A stretch of 64,000 nucleotides of DNA from an uncultured Acidobacteriota bacterium (GTDB lineage Bacteria; Acidobacteriota; Terriglobia; Bryobacterales; Bryobacteraceae). The translations under genes and the position numbers were made by a program. The stretch is taken from contig CADEFM010000013.1 in the NCBI GenBank assembly GCA_902826605.1, positions 1 to 64,000 of the forward strand, in the 5' to 3' direction. Positions within the stretch are counted from its first letter, which is position 1; every line of letters begins with the position of its first letter. Below are positions 34,720 to 46,065 of the stretch, in pieces. Below the pieces are notes generated by a model. It searched no databases, was not told where the DNA came from, and saw nothing but the letters and a program-made list of their open reading frames with translations.

Positions 34720-37194
34720 TTAACGGGTCCTTCCGGTAAACTGATACGACGCCCAATAAGCAGGAGCGCGACGCCACGTTCCCGAGTGAATCATGCCGAG
34801 CTGACTGAGGCGTAGCGCCTCCGCCGGCGGATTACTGCTTAGATACCGATAGAAGAGCGAAAAAATCTCGCCCGGCGAGTCCTCGACGGGCCAGGCGGTC
34901 GAGATCACCCCCCGCGCTCCCGCCATCAACCACGCGCGCGTAAGGCCCAGCAATCCGGCTCCGGACCGGGCATCGCCCGTACCCGTCGCGCACCCTGTCA
35001 TGACCACCAGCGCTTCAGGAACGTGGAGTGTGGCAATCTCAGATGTCGCCAGATATCCCGGCCGGGGACTCGCTTCCCCTGGCAGTCCCGACAAGCCGAA
35101 AGCGATAAATCCTTGCTCGGCCCGTGTGACTGGTGTCAATACGTGGGTAGCCAGGTGAATTACCGCCGGAGCTGGGCGGCCAGCGCCGGCTATCGCTTGC
35201 ACGAAGGCGGCCCGATTCGCTTGCGTTCCGGTCAATAGATTGGCCGTCCCACCGCTGGCGCGCCAGCGAGCCGCGCTTACGGACACTTCGGCCGCGCTTG
35301 CCACCAAGCGATCGAGTTGGCCTTGCCCGTCATGTCTCTTAACCCCGCTCCACCGCAAGTCTGCGGTGTTGTACACCGGATCTCCTACCGCCAGCATCAC
35401 ACCCGCGTAGGCGCCGGTGCGATCTGCGCGGGCGGCACTTTCCTGAGCCGCGGACGCGCCTGACAGCAACGCCCCCGGCACCACCTGTAGATTATGTTGT
35501 TCCACCAAATAAGCTGTGCTGCCATCCCGCCGCTCGGTCACCAACGCGGCAAACGGCGCTTCAAAAAGCACGCCCTCCAATGAAAGAAGCCATACCCGCT
35601 TTGCGATGTCCTCCGCCGTGAGTTCACCGAACAAAGTCCGGTACAGCAACTTCCCCAACCCCTCTGCCTCGGAATTACCCGTCCTGACGGCCTCGCGGAA
35701 AGCATGAACCTGCGCCGCGATGTGAGTCTCTGGCGGCAAGCGATGCATCCGAATGACTGCGCGGCTCACCGTCCACATGTAGGACTCCGTCTTACCTAAA
35801 TAGAAGCTTAAAATCAGCTCGCAGTCTCTTAACCCTTGTTGAAAATGAGTAAGTGAAGATCGCCCCCTAAAGTTCTCCATTTTCTTATGAGAAATTCCGC
35901 CACCTGCCTGAGTTTCCATTTCGGAAAGTTTCAAACGGAGACGATCCGCTTCTCCATTATTCTGGCTAGATTGCATTCGCTGGGCGTCTAATTTCCCGAG
36001 ATCTGCCGACACCCTCCAATACTCTTGAGGCAACCGCGATCGCCAAGCGTCCGCGAGTCCGAGACTGCTTCGCAAACTGGCGGCGCGGCTCGTCTCCACC
36101 GCTTGGAACGCTTGGCCGGCCAAGGCGGTATCGCCTGTTTCGGCTGCCTGCCTGGCTGCGAGTTGAATGTAGGATCGAAAGATCCGTTCCTCCATGGCGA
36201 CATTGTTCGCTACCAGCGCCGCGCGGGTGGGCAGCACTTGCAGACTGGCCCGTGCTGCGGCATCGGTGGCGATTGAAAAGTCTTCGAGCGCCGCGCGCGT
36301 TTGACCCAGCGCCTGGCGGATCAGGCCGCGCTGATGTTTCAGCATGTATTCGGGCCAAGTGAAGGCGCGTGCGGATGAGCCATTGTTCGCAGCGGGAGTA
36401 GCGAGCGCGTTCAATCGTGCGGCGCTCCACGGATCGTGATGCGCCAGCCGCAAGGCGGCGAGCCGGAAGTAGGACAATCCAAGTTCGCTTCGGTTTCCAA
36501 ATACCCGCGCACGAAAAGCTTCGCCAAACGCGAATTCCGCGTCCTCAAGACGTTCGTCGCGCAAGGCTTGATCGCCGAGCAGATCCCATCCTTGCGATTC
36601 CAATGCGAAGAGTCCCGACGCGCGCGCAGCTTCAATTCCGTCCGCAAAAAAAGCCCCCGCTTTGCCATCGTTTAAGAGCGCATGAATTCGGCCGGCTTGC
36701 ACCATGAGAAACGGCCTGGAATAACCCGCGGGTTTAGTTTCTGCGAGTCCATCTTCGACCGCGCGCAAAGCTGAAGAGACATCCCAGACCTGGAGATACA
36801 AACTGGAAAGGTTTACAGCGATGGCGCCCAAATCGGGGTTTGTGTTCTTCACGCCGCCGGCGCTTGCTAGCGCGCGTGCTTCGACAAACGTCGACAATGC
36901 AGCGGTGTATTGGAATCGCGCTAGTTGGCAACCACCGACACTAATCAAATACTTCACGGAGGCGATGGGATCGCCGTGTCGCACGCCGTCCTCATAGCCC
37001 TGGCGGTAAAGCTTTTCAGCAGACGCAAAATCGCCGACTTTGCGGTAGTTCGCGGCGTCGGATTGATAATGATGTGCGTCCTGATTCCATAGAACACTAG
37101 AGTCAGGCGATCTAGGCGGTGAGCCGGCCGCCCAGCGGGAACCGGTAGTCGAGAGAATGAGAATCAGGCAAAGGCACCAGGAAAAGGTTGCCAT
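34720..37194 (-). CDS. Exported TPR-CHAT (caspase-like) protein
   Basis: An 824-residue protein. A signal-peptide-like start (MATFSWCLCLILILSTTG) is followed by TPR-like helical repeats (about 45-400), a helical linker, and a C-terminal CHAT domain (about 530-820). The caspase-type dyad is intact: His684 in IHLATHVL and Cys735 in VVMTGCATGTG; the closing FYRYLSSNPPAEALRLSQ and AYWASYQFTG are typical CHAT ends. CHAT proteins are peptidases related to caspases and separase. It is first in an operon with a sigma factor and a membrane anti-sigma protein, so a role in releasing that sigma factor is inferred. A lipoprotein or cytosolic location is possible if the N-terminus is not cleaved. Confidence 0.88.
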   Translation of the reverse strand: MATFSWCLCLILILSTTGSRWAAGSPPRSPDSSVLWNQDAHHYQSDAANYRKVGDFASAEKLYRQGYEDGVRHGDPIASVKYLISVGGCQLARFQYTAALSTFVEARALASAGGVKNTNPDLGAIAVNLSSLYLQVWDVSSALRAVEDGLAETKPAGYSRPFLMVQAGRIHALLNDGKAGAFFADGIEAARASGLFALESQGWDLLGDQALRDERLEDAEFAFGEAFRARVFGNRSELGLSYFRLAALRLAHHDPWSAARLNALATPAANNGSSARAFTWPEYMLKHQRGLIRQALGQTRAALEDFSIATDAAARASLQVLPTRAALVANNVAMEERIFRSYIQLAARQAAETGDTALAGQAFQAVETSRAASLRSSLGLADAWRSRLPQEYWRVSADLGKLDAQRMQSSQNNGEADRLRLKLSEMETQAGGGISHKKMENFRGRSSLTHFQQGLRDCELILSFYLGKTESYMWTVSRAVIRMHRLPPETHIAAQVHAFREAVRTGNSEAEGLGKLLYRTLFGELTAEDIAKRVWLLSLEGVLFEAPFAALVTERRDGSTAYLVEQHNLQVVPGALLSGASAAQESAARADRTGAYAGVMLAVGDPVYNTADLRWSGVKRHDGQGQLDRLVASAAEVSVSAARWRASGGTANLLTGTQANRAAFVQAIAGAGRPAPAVIHLATHVLTPVTRAEQGFIAFGLSGLPGEASPRPGYLATSEIATLHVPEALVVMTGCATGTGDARSGAGLLGLTRAWLMAGARGVISTAWPVEDSPGEIFSLFYRYLSSNPPAEALRLSQLGMIHSGTWRRAPAYWASYQFTGRTR

Positions 37195-37626
37195 TGCTCG
37201 GTTTTCTTGTTCGAATACTCCACGTAATACTACCAGAGAACCAAATCATTTGCCAGATCTATACGTAGTAGTACTCTACATCGGGCGCGCCGCTTTGCGT
37301 TGGTTCGACTAGCTGTTCCTCCGGGTCTCTGGCAGGCCCGCCGTCTGTGACGGTCGGCGGTCAGGTGACGTAATTCCAAGTCTGTATGGAAGGCAAGAAG
37401 CGAGCCTTTCAGCTTGAATTCATGCTCCGACCTTTTTCGGTGATGTGCCACGTTCTCAACACTCTTGGCCTGGGTTTTCAAGTACGGCTTCCGCCGTCAC
37501 CCTCTTGCCGGCCATGTGGATATCTATGTGCCTATAGGGGGTAATCGAAGTAGCGAATATCGAGATTCTCCCACAATGAGTAGTGCACGAGTAACCCTCA
37601 TTGCAGCGAAGAACGAAAGGAACGAA
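37195..37626. other. Divergent intergenic region, CHAT operon / histidine kinase
   Basis: About 430 bases between the CHAT ATG and the likely kinase start. Near the CHAT gene a loose minus-strand promoter (CTGGCA, then TAGTAT after 18 bases) can be drawn. At 37341-37353 CCGTC-TGT-GACGG is a perfect small hairpin. An in-frame extension of the kinase gene back to 37465 exists but has no good ribosome-binding site. Nothing else is clear. Confidence 0.45.
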
Positions 37627-39249
37627 ATGGCCCACGCGCAGCTGTCACCGCCGCAGCCTGTAGTCCCCCTAGCGTCAATTCTCTGTACTGAGGAGTTACA
37701 GCGCCGCCCCTCCCGATTGCCCAATTCCGGCGCGGTTACCGATGCTTTGTTGAAGCTGGCGCGAACCATGGCGGATTCGCCCGAGAGTATCATGCAGCAG
37801 TTGGTCGATTCCGCGATGAACCTGTGTCAGGCACATTCGGCCGGGATCAGCCTGCTGGAAGAAGAAAATGGCCGGAAGATCTTCCGCTGGCACGGCGTCG
37901 CCGGTCAATACGCCCCGCATCTGGGAGGCACAACTCCCAGAGACTTCAGTCCATGTGGAACGGTTTTGGATACCGATGCCGTGCAATTGATGTCGCAGCT
38001 CGATCGTCATTTCGTATATTTCGCGGACGTTGAGCCCCGCATCGCGGAAGCGCTGCTGATTCCGCTTCGCGTTGCCGGCACGGCGGTCGGCACCATCTGG
38101 GTCATAGCCCACGATCTAACCCGCAAGTTTGACGCGGAAGACGCACGCGTGCTGGCCACTCTTGGGGAGTTCGCCGCAGCCGCTTACCAGGCGTTGGCCA
38201 AGGCCGTGGATTTGAATGGTATTGTCGCTACCATCCGTGAACCGCTTCTGCTGCTGGACGCCGACCTTCGCGTCAAGATCGCAAACCGATCCTTCTATCA
38301 GACCTTTCAAGTCACTCCCGAGGAGACTGCGGGACGCCTTTTCTTCGAGATTGGAAACGGGCAATGGGATATTCCGGCCCTGCGTGCGTCTTTGGAAGCA
38401 CTGCTGCCCAAGGAAAGCATGATCGAGAATTTTGAAGTCACGCAGGATTTTCCTGCGCTTGGGCAGAGAGTGATGGTGCTAAATGCCCGCCTGCTCCGTA
38501 ACGAGAACAGGCCTTCCAGTCTGATCCTGCTAGCCATCGATGACATCACCACGCGCAGACGCAAAGAAGACGAACTTCGCCGCTCCCAGGAAGACTCGCA
38601 GCGCTTTGCTTCCGTAGCGGCTCATGATCTCCGCGCCCCTCTAAATTCGTCCATGACGTTGCTGGAACTGCTCGACCGCAGGATCGGGAAAACGCTGGGG
38701 GGAAGCGACCGGCATTTATTGTCGCTCGCCAGAAATAACCTTAAGCGGCTGCAGGAATTGATGGGTGGGATCCTCGCCTACACTCGAGTGGGCGGTGCGC
38801 AACATCGGACGCTGATAGATTTACATGGGCCGCTGCAGGCGGCTCTGGATGGCTTCCAAAGTGAAATCGAAAGCGGGGAAATGTGTGTAGAGAACAGTCT
38901 TATGCCTTCCCTAAAAGCGGATGGCATTTTGATGACGCAGGTATTCCAGAACCTGATCAGCAATGCGTTCAAATTTCGTGCCGCCCGCCCGCTCGCGGTT
39001 AAGATACGGGCTGTCAGGGAGCTTGGGAAATGGGTCATGTCCATCGCCGATAACGGTGAAGGCTTCGATCCTCGCTACGCCGAACAGATTTTCCAGCCGT
39101 TCGCACGGCTGCACGGTTCCGAAGTCGACGGCAGCGGGATCGGTTTAGCCACATGTAAACGCATTATCCAGCGTCTCGGCGGCTGCATCTGGGCGGAAAG
39201 TGTGCCCGGACAAGGCGCGACGTTCTTTTTCACCCTGCCCGACGAGTAA
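37627..39249 (+). CDS. GAF-PAS sensor histidine kinase, phytochrome-like
   Basis: A 540-residue soluble kinase. GAF domain about 45-195 (ICRQ-like LCQAHSAGISLLEEENG, FSPCGTVLD, IPLRVAGTAVGTIWV), PAS domain about 200-310 (EPLLLLDADLRVKIANRSFYQTF), HisKA with His333 in AAHDLRAPLNS, and an HATPase domain (FQNLISNAFKFR, DNGEGFDP, SGIGLATCKRI). The GAF type is that seen in bacteriophytochrome-like kinases, but no chromophore Cys/His motif stands out. ATG 37627 is chosen for the AAAGGA site before it; a longer frame from 37465 is possible. Convergent with a lone receiver gene, a possible partner. Confidence 0.9.
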   Translation: MAHAQLSPPQPVVPLASILCTEELQRRPSRLPNSGAVTDALLKLARTMADSPESIMQQLVDSAMNLCQAHSAGISLLEEENGRKIFRWHGVAGQYAPHLGGTTPRDFSPCGTVLDTDAVQLMSQLDRHFVYFADVEPRIAEALLIPLRVAGTAVGTIWVIAHDLTRKFDAEDARVLATLGEFAAAAYQALAKAVDLNGIVATIREPLLLLDADLRVKIANRSFYQTFQVTPEETAGRLFFEIGNGQWDIPALRASLEALLPKESMIENFEVTQDFPALGQRVMVLNARLLRNENRPSSLILLAIDDITTRRRKEDELRRSQEDSQRFASVAAHDLRAPLNSSMTLLELLDRRIGKTLGGSDRHLLSLARNNLKRLQELMGGILAYTRVGGAQHRTLIDLHGPLQAALDGFQSEIESGEMCVENSLMPSLKADGILMTQVFQNLISNAFKFRAARPLAVKIRAVRELGKWVMSIADNGEGFDPRYAEQIFQPFARLHGSEVDGSGIGLATCKRIIQRLGGCIWAESVPGQGATFFFTLPDE

Positions 39250-39256
39250 TCGTCCT

Positions 39257-39673
39257 TCATCCCGTCGTGGACATCAGGAGTTCGGAATCGATGTCCAGCG
39301 GCAAGATGTTTGCCACCAGCGCCCGCAGTTGCTCCGGGATAAACGCCTTAGGGAGGAACTGCCAGCTTTCATTCAGAATGAGCATCCCGCCCGTGAATCC
39401 CGACATCAGCAGGATCTTAATGTTCGGAAGTTGACGAGTGATTTCCTTGGCCAACTCCATTCCAGTCATCCCCGCCATCTGGAAATCAGCCAAGAGAAGA
39501 TGAATCTCCTGCTGGCAGTCTCTCACTTGCTGAAGCGCCTCGTGACCGCTGATGGCAGTCAGCACATTGTAGTCGCCGATGAGCAGGTCGGCGATGAAGT
39601 TCAAATTCCGTGTTTGATCGTCAACCACCAGAATGGTTCTCGCACGGTGCGTGAATTCGGGGATTTGTAGCAT
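39257..39673 (-). CDS. Single-domain response regulator
   Basis: A 138-residue receiver domain without output domain. ILVVDDQ carries the acidic pair, phospho-acceptor Asp63 is in LLLADFQMAGMTG, the Thr/Ser position is LLMSGF, and the conserved Lys is in FLPKAF. It ends 7 bases from the convergent histidine kinase gene, so the two may form a pair despite opposite strands. Output must be through a protein partner. Confidence 0.9.
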   Translation of the reverse strand: MLQIPEFTHRARTILVVDDQTRNLNFIADLLIGDYNVLTAISGHEALQQVRDCQQEIHLLLADFQMAGMTGMELAKEITRQLPNIKILLMSGFTGGMLILNESWQFLPKAFIPEQLRALVANILPLDIDSELLMSTTG

Positions 39674-39935: not shown

Positions 39936-41993
39936 ATGCGTATTCTCGGGTGGAAAGCATTCCCACTATCGCTAGGCCAAATATCGCTATGCCAAGCAGG
40001 GAAGAGGCTACTCGCGCCTGCCTGTATCTGGCTGGCCGTTGCTATGCCCGCCGTGGCACAGCAGACCGCCAGTTCCTCCGATTCCGACGCTCTTAAGCAA
40101 CTAAGCCTGGAACAGTTGTCGGCGATTCAGATCACATCTGTCAACAAAGAACCCGTTACAGCTTTTCGCACTCCCGCGGCGATCACTGTGATGACCAGCG
40201 CTGATATCCGCCGGTCCGGCGCTCGAAATCTTCCCGACTTGTTGCGTCTCGCTCCAGGAGTGAACGTCGCGCAAAGCAATTCCAGCGAATGGGCCATTGG
40301 TATTCGGGGCTTCCAGAACGAGCTTTCGAAATCAGTACTAGTACTGATCGATGGACGTTCCGTGTATACTCCGTTGTTTGCCGGCGTGTACTGGGATATG
40401 CAGGACGTGCTGATCGAAGATATCGACCGGATCGAAGTCATCCGCGGACCGGGCGGGACGATCTGGGGTTCTAATGCGGTGAACGGGGTGATTAATATCA
40501 TCACCAAAAGCGCCCGGGACACCCACGGTTCCATGATTTCCTCCGGTGGGGGAAACGTGGAGCAAGGATTTCTGAATTGGCGCTATGGCGGCGGCAAGGG
40601 CGAACTGAATTACCGGATTTATGGGAAAGGCTTCACGCGCGCTCCTCAGTTGCATGCGGACGCCCGCAACTGGGATGACTGGCGCCGCACGCAAGCCGGT
40701 TTTCGGATCGATTGGCGTACTAGCGAACGGGATGAGTTGACAATACAAGGAGACGCGTACGGCGGCGAGGCTGGACAGAAACTCCAACTCAGCACCTTCT
40801 CGCCGCCCACGATCACGGTAGCCGAGGCCGATAAGAACTTCAACGGGCAAAATCTCATGCTCGCGTGGCGGCACCTCTTTGCCTCGGGTTCGGATCTTCA
40901 GATCCGCACGTTTTTCGACCGCACCGGCCGCCAGGAATTGAATTATCGGGAGAACCGGAACACATTTGACTTCGATTTGATCCACCATATCCCTTGGAAA
41001 CGCCACAACGTGAGTTGGGGACTGGGCGCGCGTGTGAGTCCGAGCCATTTTTTCCAGACTCTCCCAACGGTGAATTTCATTCCGCACACGCAAACCTACA
41101 ACATTTTCAGCGCATTTGTTCAGGACGACCTTGCGCTAGTCCGCGATCGCTTGTCGCTTACCATCGGAAGCAAGTTCGAGCATACGACCTTCAGCGGATT
41201 CAACGCCCAACCTAGCGTTCGGCTCAATTGGACGCCCACGAGGCGTTACACCGTGTGGGCGGCCGTAACGCGCGCGGTTCGGACTGCATCGAGGATTGAG
41301 GACGGATTCAATTTCAGCTTCCTCGCGCAACCCACTCTGCCCCTATATCTGCGGTTGATCGGCGATGGAAAATTCACTCCTGAGCAAATGATGGGGTACG
41401 AATTCGGCCACCGCAACTACATTGGCTCGCACGGCATCCTCTCCGTGTCGGTATTCCATAACCGCTACGACGACTTGCTCAGCGTGGAAAGCGGGCCCCC
41501 GACGGTTGAAACCGAGCCAGCGGCGACTCGACTGGTGCTGCCGCTGTTTCTAAGGAACGGGGTGCTGGCTAACGGCACCGGCGGCGAGGTGGCGATGTTG
41601 TGGGACCTCACCAAGTGGCTACGCGTGCGCCCTTCTTATTCACTGATCTTCTTGGACGCCAAGAGGGCCGCGTTTAGTAACGATGCCTCCACAGTTGGGC
41701 AACTGGAAGGCGATACGGCCCAACATAAAGCGGTCGTCCAGGCCTCCTTCACGCTTCCAAAACGCTTCGATCTGGATATGTTTTACCGGTACGTCAGTTC
41801 CGTGCCGAATCAGAGAGTTCCTTCCTATTCTACAGGCGATGTCCGCTTGAGCAGGCGTTTAGGCGAACATCTGGAGATCGAAGTGGTTGGGAGGAACCTC
41901 CTCCAACCCTCGCATGTGGAATACGGTGGATCCCCGGGACCGTTGGTGGGGATCCGGCGAAGCGGATATCTGTCCCTGACATGGAACCAGTGA
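39936..41993 (+). CDS. TonB-dependent outer-membrane receptor of a sensory operon
   Basis: A 685-residue receptor: signal peptide (about 1-40, ending PAVAQQ), a plug (LKQLSLEQLSAIQITSVNKEPV, then ADIRRSGARNLPDLLRLAPGVNV, IEVIRGPGGTIWGSNAVNGVINI) and a barrel ending in YLSLTWNQ. The LSLEQL..I.ITSV..EP start is characteristic of a receptor subgroup found beside signalling proteins rather than uptake genes. It lacks the carboxypeptidase-like N-domain of the receptor at 20793. The YfiR gene overlaps its end by 13 bases. Confidence 0.9.
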   Translation: MRILGWKAFPLSLGQISLCQAGKRLLAPACIWLAVAMPAVAQQTASSSDSDALKQLSLEQLSAIQITSVNKEPVTAFRTPAAITVMTSADIRRSGARNLPDLLRLAPGVNVAQSNSSEWAIGIRGFQNELSKSVLVLIDGRSVYTPLFAGVYWDMQDVLIEDIDRIEVIRGPGGTIWGSNAVNGVINIITKSARDTHGSMISSGGGNVEQGFLNWRYGGGKGELNYRIYGKGFTRAPQLHADARNWDDWRRTQAGFRIDWRTSERDELTIQGDAYGGEAGQKLQLSTFSPPTITVAEADKNFNGQNLMLAWRHLFASGSDLQIRTFFDRTGRQELNYRENRNTFDFDLIHHIPWKRHNVSWGLGARVSPSHFFQTLPTVNFIPHTQTYNIFSAFVQDDLALVRDRLSLTIGSKFEHTTFSGFNAQPSVRLNWTPTRRYTVWAAVTRAVRTASRIEDGFNFSFLAQPTLPLYLRLIGDGKFTPEQMMGYEFGHRNYIGSHGILSVSVFHNRYDDLLSVESGPPTVETEPAATRLVLPLFLRNGVLANGTGGEVAMLWDLTKWLRVRPSYSLIFLDAKRAAFSNDASTVGQLEGDTAQHKAVVQASFTLPKRFDLDMFYRYVSSVPNQRVPSYSTGDVRLSRRLGEHLEIEVVGRNLLQPSHVEYGGSPGPLVGIRRSGYLSLTWNQ

Positions 41994-42613
41994 AAGGCCA
42001 CCCGCCAGTTCCTATCCATTTCCCTTACTTGTGGCGCTGGTATTCGCGGCGGGGGCAGGGCCGGTGCGGACTGCTCCGAGGAATGCTAGCTGTCCTGCTT
42101 CTCTGGGACCAAACGTTGGCAGCTCAAGAAGATTCGAGGCGGACGGCCGCGCGCGAACTCCCGGAATACCAGGTCAAGGCCGCTTTTCTCCTGAATTTTG
42201 CGCGCTTTGTTGAATGGCCGGCTACGCAGACCGTGGGAGTGGCAGGCAATAGTCCGCTAACCATATGCATAGCGGGAGACGATCCTTTCGGAGGAACACT
42301 AGATCGCTTGGCGCGCGGGGAAGCCGTCAACGGCCGCCCCGTCGTGATCCGGCGTTTTTGGCAACGGGAAAGTACTTGCCAGATTCTGTTTGTCAGCGGG
42401 TCGGAGCGCGATCTTTTCCGCGCGCTTGGCAGGGCGGAACCCGGCGTCCTAACTGTTGGTGAAGACGCCGCGTTTCTGACCGAAGGCGGCATGATCAATT
42501 TCGTCGTTGAAGACCGGCGAGTTCGTTTCGACGTGAACTTGAAGGCAGCGGAACGCGCTTCGGTGCGAATCAGCTCACGGCTCTTGAGCGTAGCGAGGTC
42601 CGTGTTGCGATGA
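41981..42613 (+). CDS. YfiR-family (DUF4154) periplasmic protein
   Basis: A 210-residue protein. After a basic N-terminus and hydrophobic segment (LLRGMLAVLLLWDQTLAAQ) comes the YfiR domain: YQVKAAFLLNFARFVEWPA, SPLTICIAGDDPFG, CQILFVSGSERD, VLTVGEDAAFLTEGGMINF and VRFDVNLKAAERASVRISSRLLS. In Pseudomonas, YfiR is a periplasmic repressor that binds the periplasmic domain of the cyclase YfiN. Here the next gene is a kinase with a similar periplasmic domain, so it should repress that kinase. The exact start is uncertain (41981 or an internal ATG at 42083). Confidence 0.87.
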   Translation: MEPVKGHPPVPIHFPYLWRWYSRRGQGRCGLLRGMLAVLLLWDQTLAAQEDSRRTAARELPEYQVKAAFLLNFARFVEWPATQTVGVAGNSPLTICIAGDDPFGGTLDRLARGEAVNGRPVVIRRFWQRESTCQILFVSGSERDLFRALGRAEPGVLTVGEDAAFLTEGGMINFVVEDRRVRFDVNLKAAERASVRISSRLLSVARSVLR

Positions 42614-44073
42614 CCTGGTCGACCCGCATCGCCGCCCGCGTTCGCCGGATGCCGATCCGGCAGAAACTGAGAGTCACGTTTTTTCTCACCACTGCGCTCG
42701 CGCTGCTGCTGGCAGGTTTCGGAATCATCGCGGCGGATGTGCTGATTTCCTACAGGGGCCTCCAGACCGACCTTTCGACGTTCGCTCAAATCATCGGCGA
42801 CAACAGCACCGGAGCGCTGGCATTTAACGATGCACGCGCGGCCACGGAGACGCTTGCCGCCTTACGGTCCAGAAAGCATGTGCAGGCCGCGTGTATCTAT
42901 CAAAGCGATGGCACGCGGCTGGCGGTATACATGCGGCCGGGATATCGCGGTGACTGTCCCCGGCCGGAGGGCGAACAGATCCTTCGCATGAGGGAGATTT
43001 TGGTGATCTCGCACCAGATTTCCCGCGGCAGCCGACCCTTGGGCACGCTCGTGCTGCAGTACGATCTGTACGAACTCTCAGAACGGATTCAGCTTTACGG
43101 TGGAACGGTGCTCATTGCATTGCTCCTCTCGAGCGTTGCCGCCGGGATCTTTTCATCAAAGCTACGCGCGCTGATTGCGGACCCCATCCTGGAGTTGGCC
43201 AGCACCGCGCATGTGGTGGCGCAATCCAGGGATTACGGTGTCCGGGCAAAGAAGCTCTCGGAAGATGAAGTGGGGCTGCTGGCGGAGGCGCTGAATGAAA
43301 TGCTGAACGCCATTCAATCGCGCGACAGCGACTTGCGAGTCGCGCTCAAGGCGGAGCAGGACGCTGGAAGGCGCTTAGAACGGCTTAATGCGGATCTGAA
43401 GCGGTCCAATCAGGATCTGGAGCGCGTTGCTTTTGTCGCGAGTCATGATCTGCAGGAACCGCTGCGGATGATTACCTCATATTCTCAGCTGCTCGTGGAA
43501 CAGCATTCCGGGGACGGTGGTCCCTTTGTTAAATACATTGTTGATGGCACCCACCGCATGCGCGATCTATTGGCGGACCTATTGGCATACACTGAAGTTT
43601 CGGGTTCCGCGGAACAGCCGTTTGATCTGGTGGATCTGAACTTGGTCGTGCAGAACGTGAGAGAGACCCTGAGCGGTCAAATTTCCGAAACGCAAGCGGA
43701 AATCGTCGCCGATCCACTGCCCGTCCTCAAAGGCCACACAGGACGCATCACCTCGGTTTTCCTGAACCTAACCGGCAACGCCATCAAGTATCGCAACAAC
43801 CGGCCGCCGCGAATCCATATATCGGTCCAAGACTCGGGCGACGAGTTCACATTTTCCTTCCAGGATAACGGCATCGGCATCGCACCCGAGTATCATCAGA
43901 AAATCTTTGTGGCGTTCAAACGCCTGCACGGACGGGAAATTCCCGGCACCGGCATAGGACTGGCCATATGCCAACGAATCGTCGAAAACTATGGAGGACG
44001 GATCTGGGTGCAGTCCGAAATCGGCAAGGGGACCACGTTTCTGTTTACCTTGCCTAAGATCATGGCCCCCTAG
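42610..44073 (+). CDS. CHASE8-like/HAMP sensor histidine kinase
   Basis: A 487-residue membrane kinase. Helix 1 about 20-48, a periplasmic domain of ~110 residues (FAQIIGDNSTGALAFNDARAAT, ALRSRKHVQAACIYQSDGT) resembling CHASE8 of YfiN-type proteins, helix 2 about 160-180, HAMP (DPILELASTAHVVAQSRDY), a coiled coil, HisKA with His279 in ASHDLQEPLRM, and HATPase (LNLTGNAIKYR, DNGIGIAPEY, GTGIGLAICQRI). The ATG overlaps the yfiR stop (ATGA). It should pass phosphate to the receiver encoded 9 bases downstream. Confidence 0.9.
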   Translation: MTWSTRIAARVRRMPIRQKLRVTFFLTTALALLLAGFGIIAADVLISYRGLQTDLSTFAQIIGDNSTGALAFNDARAATETLAALRSRKHVQAACIYQSDGTRLAVYMRPGYRGDCPRPEGEQILRMREILVISHQISRGSRPLGTLVLQYDLYELSERIQLYGGTVLIALLLSSVAAGIFSSKLRALIADPILELASTAHVVAQSRDYGVRAKKLSEDEVGLLAEALNEMLNAIQSRDSDLRVALKAEQDAGRRLERLNADLKRSNQDLERVAFVASHDLQEPLRMITSYSQLLVEQHSGDGGPFVKYIVDGTHRMRDLLADLLAYTEVSGSAEQPFDLVDLNLVVQNVRETLSGQISETQAEIVADPLPVLKGHTGRITSVFLNLTGNAIKYRNNRPPRIHISVQDSGDEFTFSFQDNGIGIAPEYHQKIFVAFKRLHGREIPGTGIGLAICQRIVENYGGRIWVQSEIGKGTTFLFTLPKIMAP

Positions 44074-44082
44074 GATGACTTG

Positions 44083-44529
44083 ATGGAAACCGGCCGAAAA
44101 ATTCGAATTCTGCTGATCGAAGACAATCTCGGAGACGTCGATCTCATCCGGTTTGCGCTGCAACGGGCGAAACTGGATTGCGAATTGACCGTCATTAACG
44201 ACGGAGGCGAGGCATTGGCGCTCGTGCGGAGGGCAAATGCGCTGCCAAACCCTGTCGTTCCGGATTTGATTCTCCTGGACTTGAACCTTCCTAAAGCTGA
44301 CGGACGGGAAATTCTGACGGAAATGCGCTCCACGTCGACTTTTGCGGACGTACCCGTTGTCATTCTTACTTCTTCGTCATGGCTGCGCGAGCGTGAACAG
44401 TTGGAATCGCTTCGGATCGCCCGCCATATTACGAAGCCGCCGGATCTGGATGCCTTTTTGAAGCTGGGTTTTGTTGTCAGAGAAGTGCTGGACGACTACG
44501 CGGCAGGGGGCGGCCAAGCCATAAGCTAG
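44083..44529 (+). CDS. Response regulator, Rcp1-like single receiver
   Basis: A 148-residue receiver protein. Acidic pair in LLIEDNLGDVDLI, phospho-acceptor Asp66 in LILLDLNLPKADG, Thr/Ser site VVILTSSS and Lys in ITKPPDLD. The EDNxGDxxLI form is that of Rcp1, the partner of phytochrome-like kinases, which suits the upstream kinase. No output domain. The ATG at 44083 is preferred to a TTG just before it. Confidence 0.92.
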   Translation: METGRKIRILLIEDNLGDVDLIRFALQRAKLDCELTVINDGGEALALVRRANALPNPVVPDLILLDLNLPKADGREILTEMRSTSTFADVPVVILTSSSWLREREQLESLRIARHITKPPDLDAFLKLGFVVREVLDDYAAGGGQAIS

Positions 44530-44622: not shown

Positions 44623-46065
44623 GTGCGTCGCTTCACTGCTTTCACCGTGGCGCGATGGGGAGTTGCCGTAACTCTCCTGCTTGTGGTGCAGGCAGCTTGG
44701 GCGCGTAAAAGCGTGATCGCGGAAACCACCGCTCAAACCGCGCTCACACTGTTGCAGAGCGGACAAACAGAGGCTGCCCTTGCACAGGTTCATGCGGCGC
44801 TTGCGGCGAATCCGAAAGACTCCACTCTCCTATGTGTGCTGGGCGATATCCTGTTTCGCAAATCGGAGTTCGAATCCGCTGAGACTGCCTATCGCCTCGC
44901 TTTGAAGAGCGACACGGCCTCGGCGCGGGCACACTGGGGGCTGGGTCGGCTTAGCCGGCTTCGTTTTTCGCGAAAGACCGCGCGCGAGCATTTTTCGGCG
45001 GCCTATCACCTGGATCCTTCCGATCCCGACATCATTCTTGCCCATGCGGATTCAGTTCCAGACGCGGACTCTCGCAAGGCGTTGCTGCAGCGCTTCCTGG
45101 CCCTAGCCGAGCTTGAGGACAGCGGTCGAGTGGACGATGTGGCCGCGCGCCTTCAAATGGAGGAGCGCATCGGCGAGCGCCAGATGGGAGCGTTGGCCAG
45201 TCCCTACCGTGGTTATCGTTTCAAGCTATCGTCCTTTTTCCCGGTGAACTCCGCGCCTAATGGATGGCTGCTGAACGTAAGCATCGACGGAGGCAAACCC
45301 CTGCGGTTGGTGCTGGACACGGGCGGGAATGGAATTGTCTTGAACGCCAAGGCAGCGCGAGGGGCTGCACGCGAAGTGCTCGCCCGCTCCGAGGTTAAGG
45401 GTTTGGGTTCCGGCAATGCCGCGCAAGCCCACGTATCGCTCGCACGTACCGTATCCATTGACGACTTCATTCTGGTAAATGTTCCGATTGAAGTGGTGGA
45501 GGCGAGCGTGGTGCCAGGAGCCGACGGAATTATCGGAGCCGATGTTTTTCAGCAATTCTTGGTGAAACTGGACGCGCGCCGGCGCACTTTGGAGCTAACG
45601 CCCTTCGCGGGACAGCCGGAGCCGCACAATTACTCGCGAGATGCGTGGATCGCTTACGATCCGGCTCCGTGCACGGATTGCGAACACTTCACACCGGTCT
45701 ATTCCGTCTCGCACTTTTTGTTGATACGCGCCACCCTGGACGGCGTGCACGACGGCTATTTTTTGTTGGACACCGGCTCGGCCCGAACCGTGATCTCAAA
45801 GGCCGTGGCGAGTCCGGCCGCGGCTGAGCGTGAATCCCTGAGTGGGGCGCAAGGGGAAATTCACGGTGCGCATCGTCTGAACCCCGTAAGTGTGAAACTT
45901 GCGGGCGAACAATTTTTCGACCCCGCTCCGATCGCCGCCGATCTCAAACAGATGAGCCTTCGGCAGGGCGTCGAAATTTCCGGGACCATCGGCTATTCGC
46001 TGCTTTCACGGTCGGTTCTCACCATCAACTACAGAGATGGCCTGGTTCAACTGAACGCGAAGTAA
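44623..46065 (+). CDS. Secreted TPR protein with two retropepsin-like aspartyl protease domains
   Basis: A 480-residue protein: signal peptide about 1-27 (VAVTLLLVVQAAWA), two or three TPR repeats (about 35-150: LLQSGQTEAALAQVHAALAANP, GDILFRKSEFESAETAYRLAL), then two aspartyl-protease-like halves. The first has LRLVLDTGGNGIVL (Asp232), the second YFLLDTGSARTVIS (Asp383), with ADGIIGADVFQQF and GTIGYSLLSRSV as the matching hydrophobic motifs. Two DTG motifs in one chain could fold as an internal dimer. The GTG start at 44623 follows GGGGAG; no ATG is in frame. Confidence 0.83.
   Translation: MRRFTAFTVARWGVAVTLLLVVQAAWARKSVIAETTAQTALTLLQSGQTEAALAQVHAALAANPKDSTLLCVLGDILFRKSEFESAETAYRLALKSDTASARAHWGLGRLSRLRFSRKTAREHFSAAYHLDPSDPDIILAHADSVPDADSRKALLQRFLALAELEDSGRVDDVAARLQMEERIGERQMGALASPYRGYRFKLSSFFPVNSAPNGWLLNVSIDGGKPLRLVLDTGGNGIVLNAKAARGAAREVLARSEVKGLGSGNAAQAHVSLARTVSIDDFILVNVPIEVVEASVVPGADGIIGADVFQQFLVKLDARRRTLELTPFAGQPEPHNYSRDAWIAYDPAPCTDCEHFTPVYSVSHFLLIRATLDGVHDGYFLLDTGSARTVISKAVASPAAAERESLSGAQGEIHGAHRLNPVSVKLAGEQFFDPAPIAADLKQMSLRQGVEISGTIGYSLLSRSVLTINYRDGLVQLNAK

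Follow-up and report, generated by a model that had tools for sequence, protein, structure and literature searches.

Background

The closest described relatives of the locus studied here are the YfiBNR systems of Pseudomonas and Escherichia coli, in which, in Pseudomonas, the known mode of action is capture of YfiR by YfiB (PMC3375315, PMC4655355) and the motif AAVVF on the PAS surface of YfiN was inferred genetically to be the YfiR-binding site (PMC3375315). As described by Malone et al. 2012 (PMC3375315), divergent Yfi operons nearly always lack YfiB, their GGDEF domain is often replaced by GGDEF-EAL, histidine phosphotransfer (HPT) or kinase domains, and chemoreceptor outputs are likewise known; the same report regards the YfiR-YfiN core as modular and possibly of ancient origin, and its alignment includes Acidobacteria bacterium Ellin345. 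The input of YfiR systems without YfiB has been a standing question since that 2012 report. Here we analyze a stretch of 64,000 nucleotides (the window) of contig CADEFM010000013.1 (assembly GCA_902826605.1) from an uncultured bacterium of the Bryobacteraceae (Acidobacteriota), which carries a cassette of genes for a TonB-dependent receptor, a YfiR protein, a CHASE8-HAMP histidine kinase and a stand-alone receiver. An earlier reading of the window made from its letters (the sequence-only reading) had described a Yfi-type sensor rewired from cyclase to kinase, with the receptor in place of YfiB.

We report that the receptor belongs to one unit with YfiR and the sensor and diverges together with them, while the output attached to the sensor is freely exchanged. 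For the window and its relatives we computed the gene content, the fused sensor, the conservation of a Phe alongside YfiR, the co-divergence of receptor, YfiR and sensor, and the free exchange of outputs. The interpretation is partly new: the swap to a kinase output and the absence of YfiB were published in 2012 and NCBIfam models already exist, and what is added here, from sequence comparison, is that the receptor belongs to the YfiR-sensor unit. TonB has zero mentions in the main text of PMC3375315, we found no description of a role for a TonB receptor in YfiR systems in the open-access literature searched, and the open-access papers that name both YfiR and TonB-dependent have other subjects, as far as their titles and the start of their abstracts tell.

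Co-divergence and linkage of receptor, YfiR and sensor

Loci were fetched around sensor matches (96), together with 20 further loci, 80 titled loci picked by receptor similarity alone (the titled set) and 40 from Gammaproteobacteria, the latter picked from approximately 100 CHASE8 matches and mostly the better-scoring ones; E. coli K-12 served as yardstick. Domain labels in this survey rest on profiles derived from the window and the surveyed loci, with a Pfam check on 16 proteins. In the 93 loci where no piece is missing, pairwise distances of the receptor correlate with those of YfiR (rho = 0.50) and of the sensor (0.54), and those of YfiR with those of the sensor (0.71); these three values exceed all of 200 permutations (maxima 0.24-0.30). 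For the kinase core the values are 0.11 with the sensor, which is on the same polypeptide, 0.02 with YfiR and 0.11 with the receptor, all within the permutation range. Since the split-half correlation of the kinase core is 0.785, its distances are not noise and the core has a signal of its own.

In the genome of the window (4.49 Mb in 30 contigs), a profile search gives two YfiR and two CHASE8 matches, and there are two strong receptors of the TOL_0244 type (574 and 481 bits, the next reaching 105); all six are located at the same two loci: the window and a locus on contig C5 (L025), where the receptor is followed by YfiR and then by a hybrid kinase with two receivers. Among the 297 genomes sampled from the phylum YfiR is present in 67. 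The titled set was chosen by receptor similarity, and its receptor adjacency is therefore by construction, which does not apply to its YfiR adjacency: YfiR follows 67 of the 88 receptors (63 by rule and 4 by overlapping open reading frames), and 7 of the remaining 21 receptors end within 700 bases of the edge of the retrieved stretch. Receptor-YfiR pairs in this set are distributed over Acidobacteria, Verrucomicrobia, Planctomycetota, Nitrospira, Nitrospinaceae, Bacteroidota, Gemmatimonadetes, Alphaproteobacteria, Deltaproteobacteria, Candidatus Thiodiazotropha and Deferribacteres, the records being mostly metagenome-assembled. The exact order receptor, YfiR, stand-alone kinase and stand-alone receiver was seen at 31 places, two of which (L051 and L166) have identical coordinates and lengths and are likely one locus counted twice; at L203 the receiver lies 2.3 kb off. 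Linkage and co-divergence bear out the TonB receptor as a conserved partner of YfiR and the sensor. Its proposed position in place of YfiB fits as well, with no YfiB-like gene within 4 kb in 147 of 149 loci with a TonB-dependent receptor and no YfiB-like open reading frame within 4 kb of the window sensor, while mutual exclusivity of receptor and YfiB is weakly tested because the sole complete YfiBNR operon in the sample is that of E. coli.

Among the loci, L160 has the front end closest to that of the window (receptor 48% and YfiR 55% identical), and a kinase gene that stands apart in L160 shares 50% identity over 242 residues with the window kinase core. YfiR-receptor pairs for which no CHASE8 sensor was detected in the retrieved stretch were seen in L146-L151, and beside one Yfi-type cassette there is a gene for a kinase of 1926 residues in which nine or ten HAMP repeats are combined with GAF and three receivers (L072:13784-19561).

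Kinase core, receiver and exchange of outputs

The window kinase has HisKA (29.3 bits) and HATPase_c (95.7 bits) domains and its core has 8f71 and bacteriophytochromes as nearest PDB relatives. The receiver (PF00072, 54.5 bits) has its best solved relatives in RcpA (1k68, E = 1e-21), a bacteriophytochrome regulator and Rcp1 (1jlk/1i3c). The requisites of a two-component system, i.e. phospho-acceptor His, ATPase domain and receiver Asp, are all found in adjacent genes of the window.

An attempt to split the kinase cores into two distance clusters failed (92 vs. 1), and the H-box type was used instead to class them. Cores with an 'HD' H-box, to which the window kinase belongs, are stand-alone in 34 out of 34 cases, 23 of them with a solo receiver; cores with an 'HE' H-box are hybrids in 95 out of 110, and 24 cores were unclassified. 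Of the 32 loci in which a stand-alone kinase is accompanied by a solo receiver, 13 have a further kinase gene and 4 a GGDEF gene in the 2.5 kb that follow; 15 loci, among them the window, have neither. A receiver-GGDEF gene is present within 5.5 kb downstream of 22 of 168 kinase sensors, including 11 of 32 from Gammaproteobacteria, and in such loci the kinase output may lead back to cyclic di-GMP; no such gene adjoins the window cassette, and four GGDEF matches are found elsewhere in the genome. Gammaproteobacterial loci with the kinase form followed by a receiver-GGDEF gene are L276, L282, L289, L296-L298, L303, L304, L309 and L311.

The 204 CHASE8-HAMP proteins, which were not de-duplicated (overlaps e.g. 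L079/L152, L051/L166 and L108/L165), end in a kinase (59), a hybrid kinase (104), a hybrid kinase with GGDEF (5), GGDEF or GGDEF-EAL (19) or another output (17), which makes 168 of 204 kinase-ending. Several kinase classes are fused to the sensor: HisKA, HisKA_2/HWE (L041), HisKA_3 (L209) and HATPase_c without a recognized HisKA (L289, L214). Among the other outputs, the front end is fused to a chemoreceptor (methyl-accepting chemotaxis protein) output in L117, L119 and L197, the TonB receptor adjoining in L119 and L197, where chemotaxis via a TonB receptor is possible, and to a SpoIIE phosphatase in L043 and L048, where YfiR is not nearby.

Sensor trees were computed from 185 distinct rows, leaving out the 17 'other' sensors, 8 of which run off the retrieved stretch. 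The FastTree of all 185 rows needs 11 changes between kinase and GGDEF, and a 51-row tree needs 8 compared with 12-19 in 50 shuffles; in the latter, groups of mixed output have values of 98 (the L225 hybrid with the GGDEF-EAL proteins of L065/L067), 97, 95 and 85 in the Shimodaira-Hasegawa-like approximate likelihood ratio test (SH-aLRT). These trees, which are unrooted and poorly resolved in their deep branches, support that outputs have repeatedly switched between kinase and GGDEF. A direction from cyclase to kinase is not supported: the kinase outputs are in the majority (168 vs. 19), the switches are repeated, and the direction is not shown because the trees are unrooted.

YfiR and its predicted contact with the sensor

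The window YfiR matches PF13689 (142.4 bits, cut-off 24.9) and passes NF053591 (157.1 bits, cut-off 125), while it misses NF053586, 'sequestration protein YfiR' (32.7 bits, cut-off 85). Its structural model has a mean predicted local distance difference test (pLDDT) value of 92, and YfiR entries take the first 15 places among its PDB matches, with template modeling (TM) scores against the P. aeruginosa YfiR structures of 0.66-0.72 (query-normalized). The next fold matches are substrate-binding proteins with TM scores of 0.44-0.53, among them Rhodothermus marinus 6k1y (E = 9.6e-4). Of the cysteine pairs known from P. aeruginosa YfiR, Cys71/Cys110 is kept in the window protein and both residues are present in 81 of 178 YfiRs; Cys145/Cys152 is missing, and Cys occurs at these two positions in 7 and 3, respectively, of the 178.

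On the sensor side, the kinase passes NF053592, 'sensor histidine kinase, YfiR-like protein-associated' (201.5 bits, cut-off 194), a model on which E. coli DgcN scores 81 bits and the GGDEF-EAL protein of a locus of the order TonB-dependent receptor-YfiR-GGDEF-EAL (L272) 211 bits. The segment corresponding to AAVVF is GALAF, in which the Phe is retained. Of 165 sensors that have YfiR no more than 5 kb away, 161 carry this Phe, compared with 10 of 20 without such a YfiR, or 9 of 19 after removal of one contig-end case (Fisher p = 8e-9, uncorrected for sequence relatedness); two of the four exceptions near YfiR are second sensors in their locus. YfiR probably contacts CHASE8 at GALAF.

The receptor and its lead motif

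The window receptor has a Plug domain (83.6 bits, cut-off 23.9) and no Pfam match to STN, and its AlphaFold model shows barrel and plug at high confidence (mean pLDDT 85.7). On NF053590 (TOL_0244 receptor) it scores 574.1 bits, i.e. under the cut-off of 645, and is accordingly a relative and not a member. The match starts at residue 53, within a putative periplasmic lead. In 100 YfiR-linked receptors the lead follows the consensus D-L-T/K-x-L-S-L-E-E/D/Q-L-M-N-I/V-E-V-T-S-V-S-K (DLTxLSLEELMNIEVTSVSK-like), where the last Leu of LEEL is conserved in 94, the Glu after LSL in 79 and the Val/Ile of E-V-T in 98.

Using a profile match start of 5 or less as a proxy for a receptor that reaches into the lead, we compared the 150 best NF053590 hits in the 297 genomes: 43 of 57 lead-reaching receptors are within 5 kb of YfiR, compared with 3 of 93 others, two of these three being cut pieces. 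Among the 14 lead-reaching receptors without YfiR within 5 kb, three are at contig ends (L133, L134 and L145), one is 5.4 kb from YfiR in a CHASE8 cluster (G185, L058), six are without a genuine lead motif (L139-L144) and four are true orphans carrying the lead (L135-L138).

Organization of the cassette and neighboring genes

The four genes and their spacing, with neighbors overlapping or at most 9 bases apart, were confirmed at the positions given by the sequence-only reading, with the domains identified by Pfam (Table 1). The YfiR identity was likewise upheld by profile and fold, and the periplasmic domain, checked by profile against CHASE8, proved to be a true CHASE8-HAMP front end (HAMP 30.5 bits). 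The receptor stop and the YfiR start overlap by 13 bases if the first ATG, which lies inside the receptor gene, is used, but YfiR may also start further downstream, in which case a gap would separate the two genes; YfiR and kinase genes overlap by 4 bases (ATGA). With the receiver start at ATG 44083 the distance from the kinase stop is 9 bases and the phospho-acceptor is numbered Asp66, in keeping with the acceptor named earlier.

Table 1 Features of the Yfi-type cassette in the window
Feature	Position	Strand	Basis
TonB-dependent receptor, TOL_0244-like, no STN domain	39936..41993	+	Pfam Plug, NF053590, AlphaFold barrel and plug
Periplasmic lead motif LKQLSLEQLSAIQITSVNK, receptor residues 53-71; proposed YfiR-capture segment	40092..40148	+	Between signal peptide and plug
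YfiR/DUF4154 periplasmic protein, TOL_0243-type	41981..42613	+	PF13689, NF053591, fold match; exact start uncertain
YfiR cysteine pair aligned with Cys71 and Cys110 of P. aeruginosa YfiR	42266..42379	+	Alignment
CHASE8-HAMP-HisKA-HATPase histidine kinase	42610..44073	+	Pfam, NF053592
CHASE8 periplasmic domain	42757..43056	+	PF17152, 57.8 bits, cut-off 27
GALAF, aligned with YfiR-binding motif AAVVF of YfiN/DgcN, Phe kept	42811..42825	+	Alignment to E. coli DgcN
Phospho-acceptor His279, H-box SHDLQEPL	43444..43446	+	HisKA match, H-box class
Stand-alone Rcp1/RcpA-like receiver, no output domain	44083..44529	+	PF00072, PDB match 1k68; Asp66 at 44278-44280

Directly before the receptor there are genes for a GAF-PAS histidine kinase (37465-39249, + strand) and a convergent single-domain receiver (39257-39673, - strand), preceded by the gene for a CHAT-domain protein (34720-37194, - strand; 142.9 bits) whose N-terminal region is long. 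Shortly after the cassette, 44623-46065 encodes one protein with TPR and two retropepsin-like aspartyl protease stretches.

Proposed mechanism and alternatives

The four genes very probably work in one pathway. We lean towards a chain in which the receptor is the outer-membrane input and YfiR the shuttle to the kinase. YfiR would bind the CHASE8 domain of the kinase at GALAF, the site corresponding to AAVVF of YfiN, and hold it in one state; an occupied or energized TonB receptor would expose its short periplasmic lead peptide, which would capture YfiR by analogy with YfiB in Pseudomonas and thereby free the kinase; and the freed kinase would phosphorylate the Rcp1-like receiver at Asp66. Because it has no effector domain, the receiver would then act by protein contact or hand the phosphate on. 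In this chain we infer the capture by the lead, the sign of regulation, the ligand, the phosphotransfer and the final target, and for the capture step itself we consider the chances to be about even.

Several observations weigh against this chain. The four orphan receptors had no YfiR in the 10 flanking proteins scanned, and the genome of one of them (L138) has no YfiR match anywhere; since they carry the lead, it also occurs outside YfiR systems and may instead mark the family or belong to the TonB box. Moreover, some receptors beside YfiR (L185, L217 and L220) bear a different lead, and the window lead is poorly modeled, as a short helix (58-62) of low confidence. The second disulfide, which P. 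aeruginosa YfiR requires for folding (PMC4655355), has no counterpart in the window YfiR, and the sole other genome of the same genus sampled (G187) has no YfiR. Finally, nearest neighbors share the kinase core in 33-40% of cases; the cores of close neighbors being partly shared, the decoupling of front end and output is a deep-time effect.

The main rival is that YfiR is a small solute-binding protein: it would take over the ligand that enters through the receptor and, in its loaded or its empty form, dock on CHASE8 and set the kinase, the lead being only an energy-coupling part. LuxP acting on LuxQ provides a parallel. Co-divergence of receptor, YfiR and sensor fits this equally well, 6k1y comes next after the 15 YfiR chains, and YfiR has been likened to an ABC protein (PMC4655355); on the other hand, the matches to substrate-binding folds are weak, the known Pseudomonas mode is capture of YfiR by YfiB, and the strongest conserved contact tested, the Phe site, is one between proteins. 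We hold this rival to be unlikely.

We regard as less likely still that the receptor is the output, with YfiR as a sensor of redox or envelope state and the kinase and its regulator controlling expression or use of the receptor. Although the receptor is the first gene of the operon and the window YfiR retains the two cysteines that form a redox-sensitive pair in Pseudomonas (PMC4655355), this pair is present in fewer than half of the YfiRs, the receiver has no DNA-binding domain, and the receptor tracks YfiR and the sensor rather than the kinase core and is also found beside GGDEF(-EAL) and chemoreceptor outputs. That an ordinary transporter lies by chance beside an ordinary two-component system is rejected as highly improbable because of the linkage counts in genome and phylum (two out of two in the window genome, and the association of lead-reaching receptors with YfiR) and the same gene order in many phyla, even though matches to TonB-dependent receptors and two-component genes are plentiful in these genomes and a further kinase and receiver lie just upstream (37465-39673).

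For the receptor as input feeding YfiR and the sensor, we propose a generalization that we hold tentatively and with somewhat more doubt than confidence: in a large group of TonB receptors from about ten phyla an LSLEEL-like lead, in place of STN, would capture YfiR and drive a CHASE8 sensor with an interchangeable output (several kinase classes, diguanylate cyclase or chemoreceptor), receptor, YfiR and sensor would form one inherited unit, and the lipoprotein-type YfiBNR would be a minority variant of it. Signaling through such a lead would be a mode not described for TonB receptors. If the receptor is the input, many uncharacterized CHASE8 kinases and cyclases gain a testable upstream partner and a ligand route, and for TonB receptors a further way of signaling is added to the STN/anti-sigma route. 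Two simple single-site test points are offered by the lead motif and the Phe at the AAVVF site.

Comparison with known systems

In FecA-type TonB transducers an outer-membrane receptor signals to an inner-membrane protein. The window cassette differs in having neither an STN domain nor an anti-sigma factor and a short lead motif instead, and a receptor of the FecA type was ruled out by the lack of STN in the Pfam search. With the Cph1-Rcp1 and bacteriophytochrome pairs the window shares a kinase core and a stand-alone receiver that have close PDB relatives there, while its kinase has no photosensor and takes its input through CHASE8. The NCBIfam models NF053590, NF053591 and NF053592, which are annotation models only, give the best or above-cut-off matches of three window proteins.

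The divergent Yfi module reported in silico (PMC3375315) has the same kind of output swap, YfiR likewise adjoining a CHASE8-HAMP protein with a non-GGDEF output; the difference is the TonB receptor, which the main text of that report does not mention. In common with YfiBNR (YfiR-DgcN-YfiB) of Pseudomonas and E. coli the window has YfiR (DUF4154), a CHASE8-HAMP inner-membrane sensor and the Phe at the YfiR-binding motif, and as in E. coli YfiR-DgcN the sensor gene directly follows that of YfiR. Two of the four conserved cysteines are retained in the window YfiR, a kinase and receiver (HisKA, HATPase_c) stand where YfiBNR has GGDEF, and a TonB receptor is present where YfiBNR has the OmpA-like lipoprotein YfiB.

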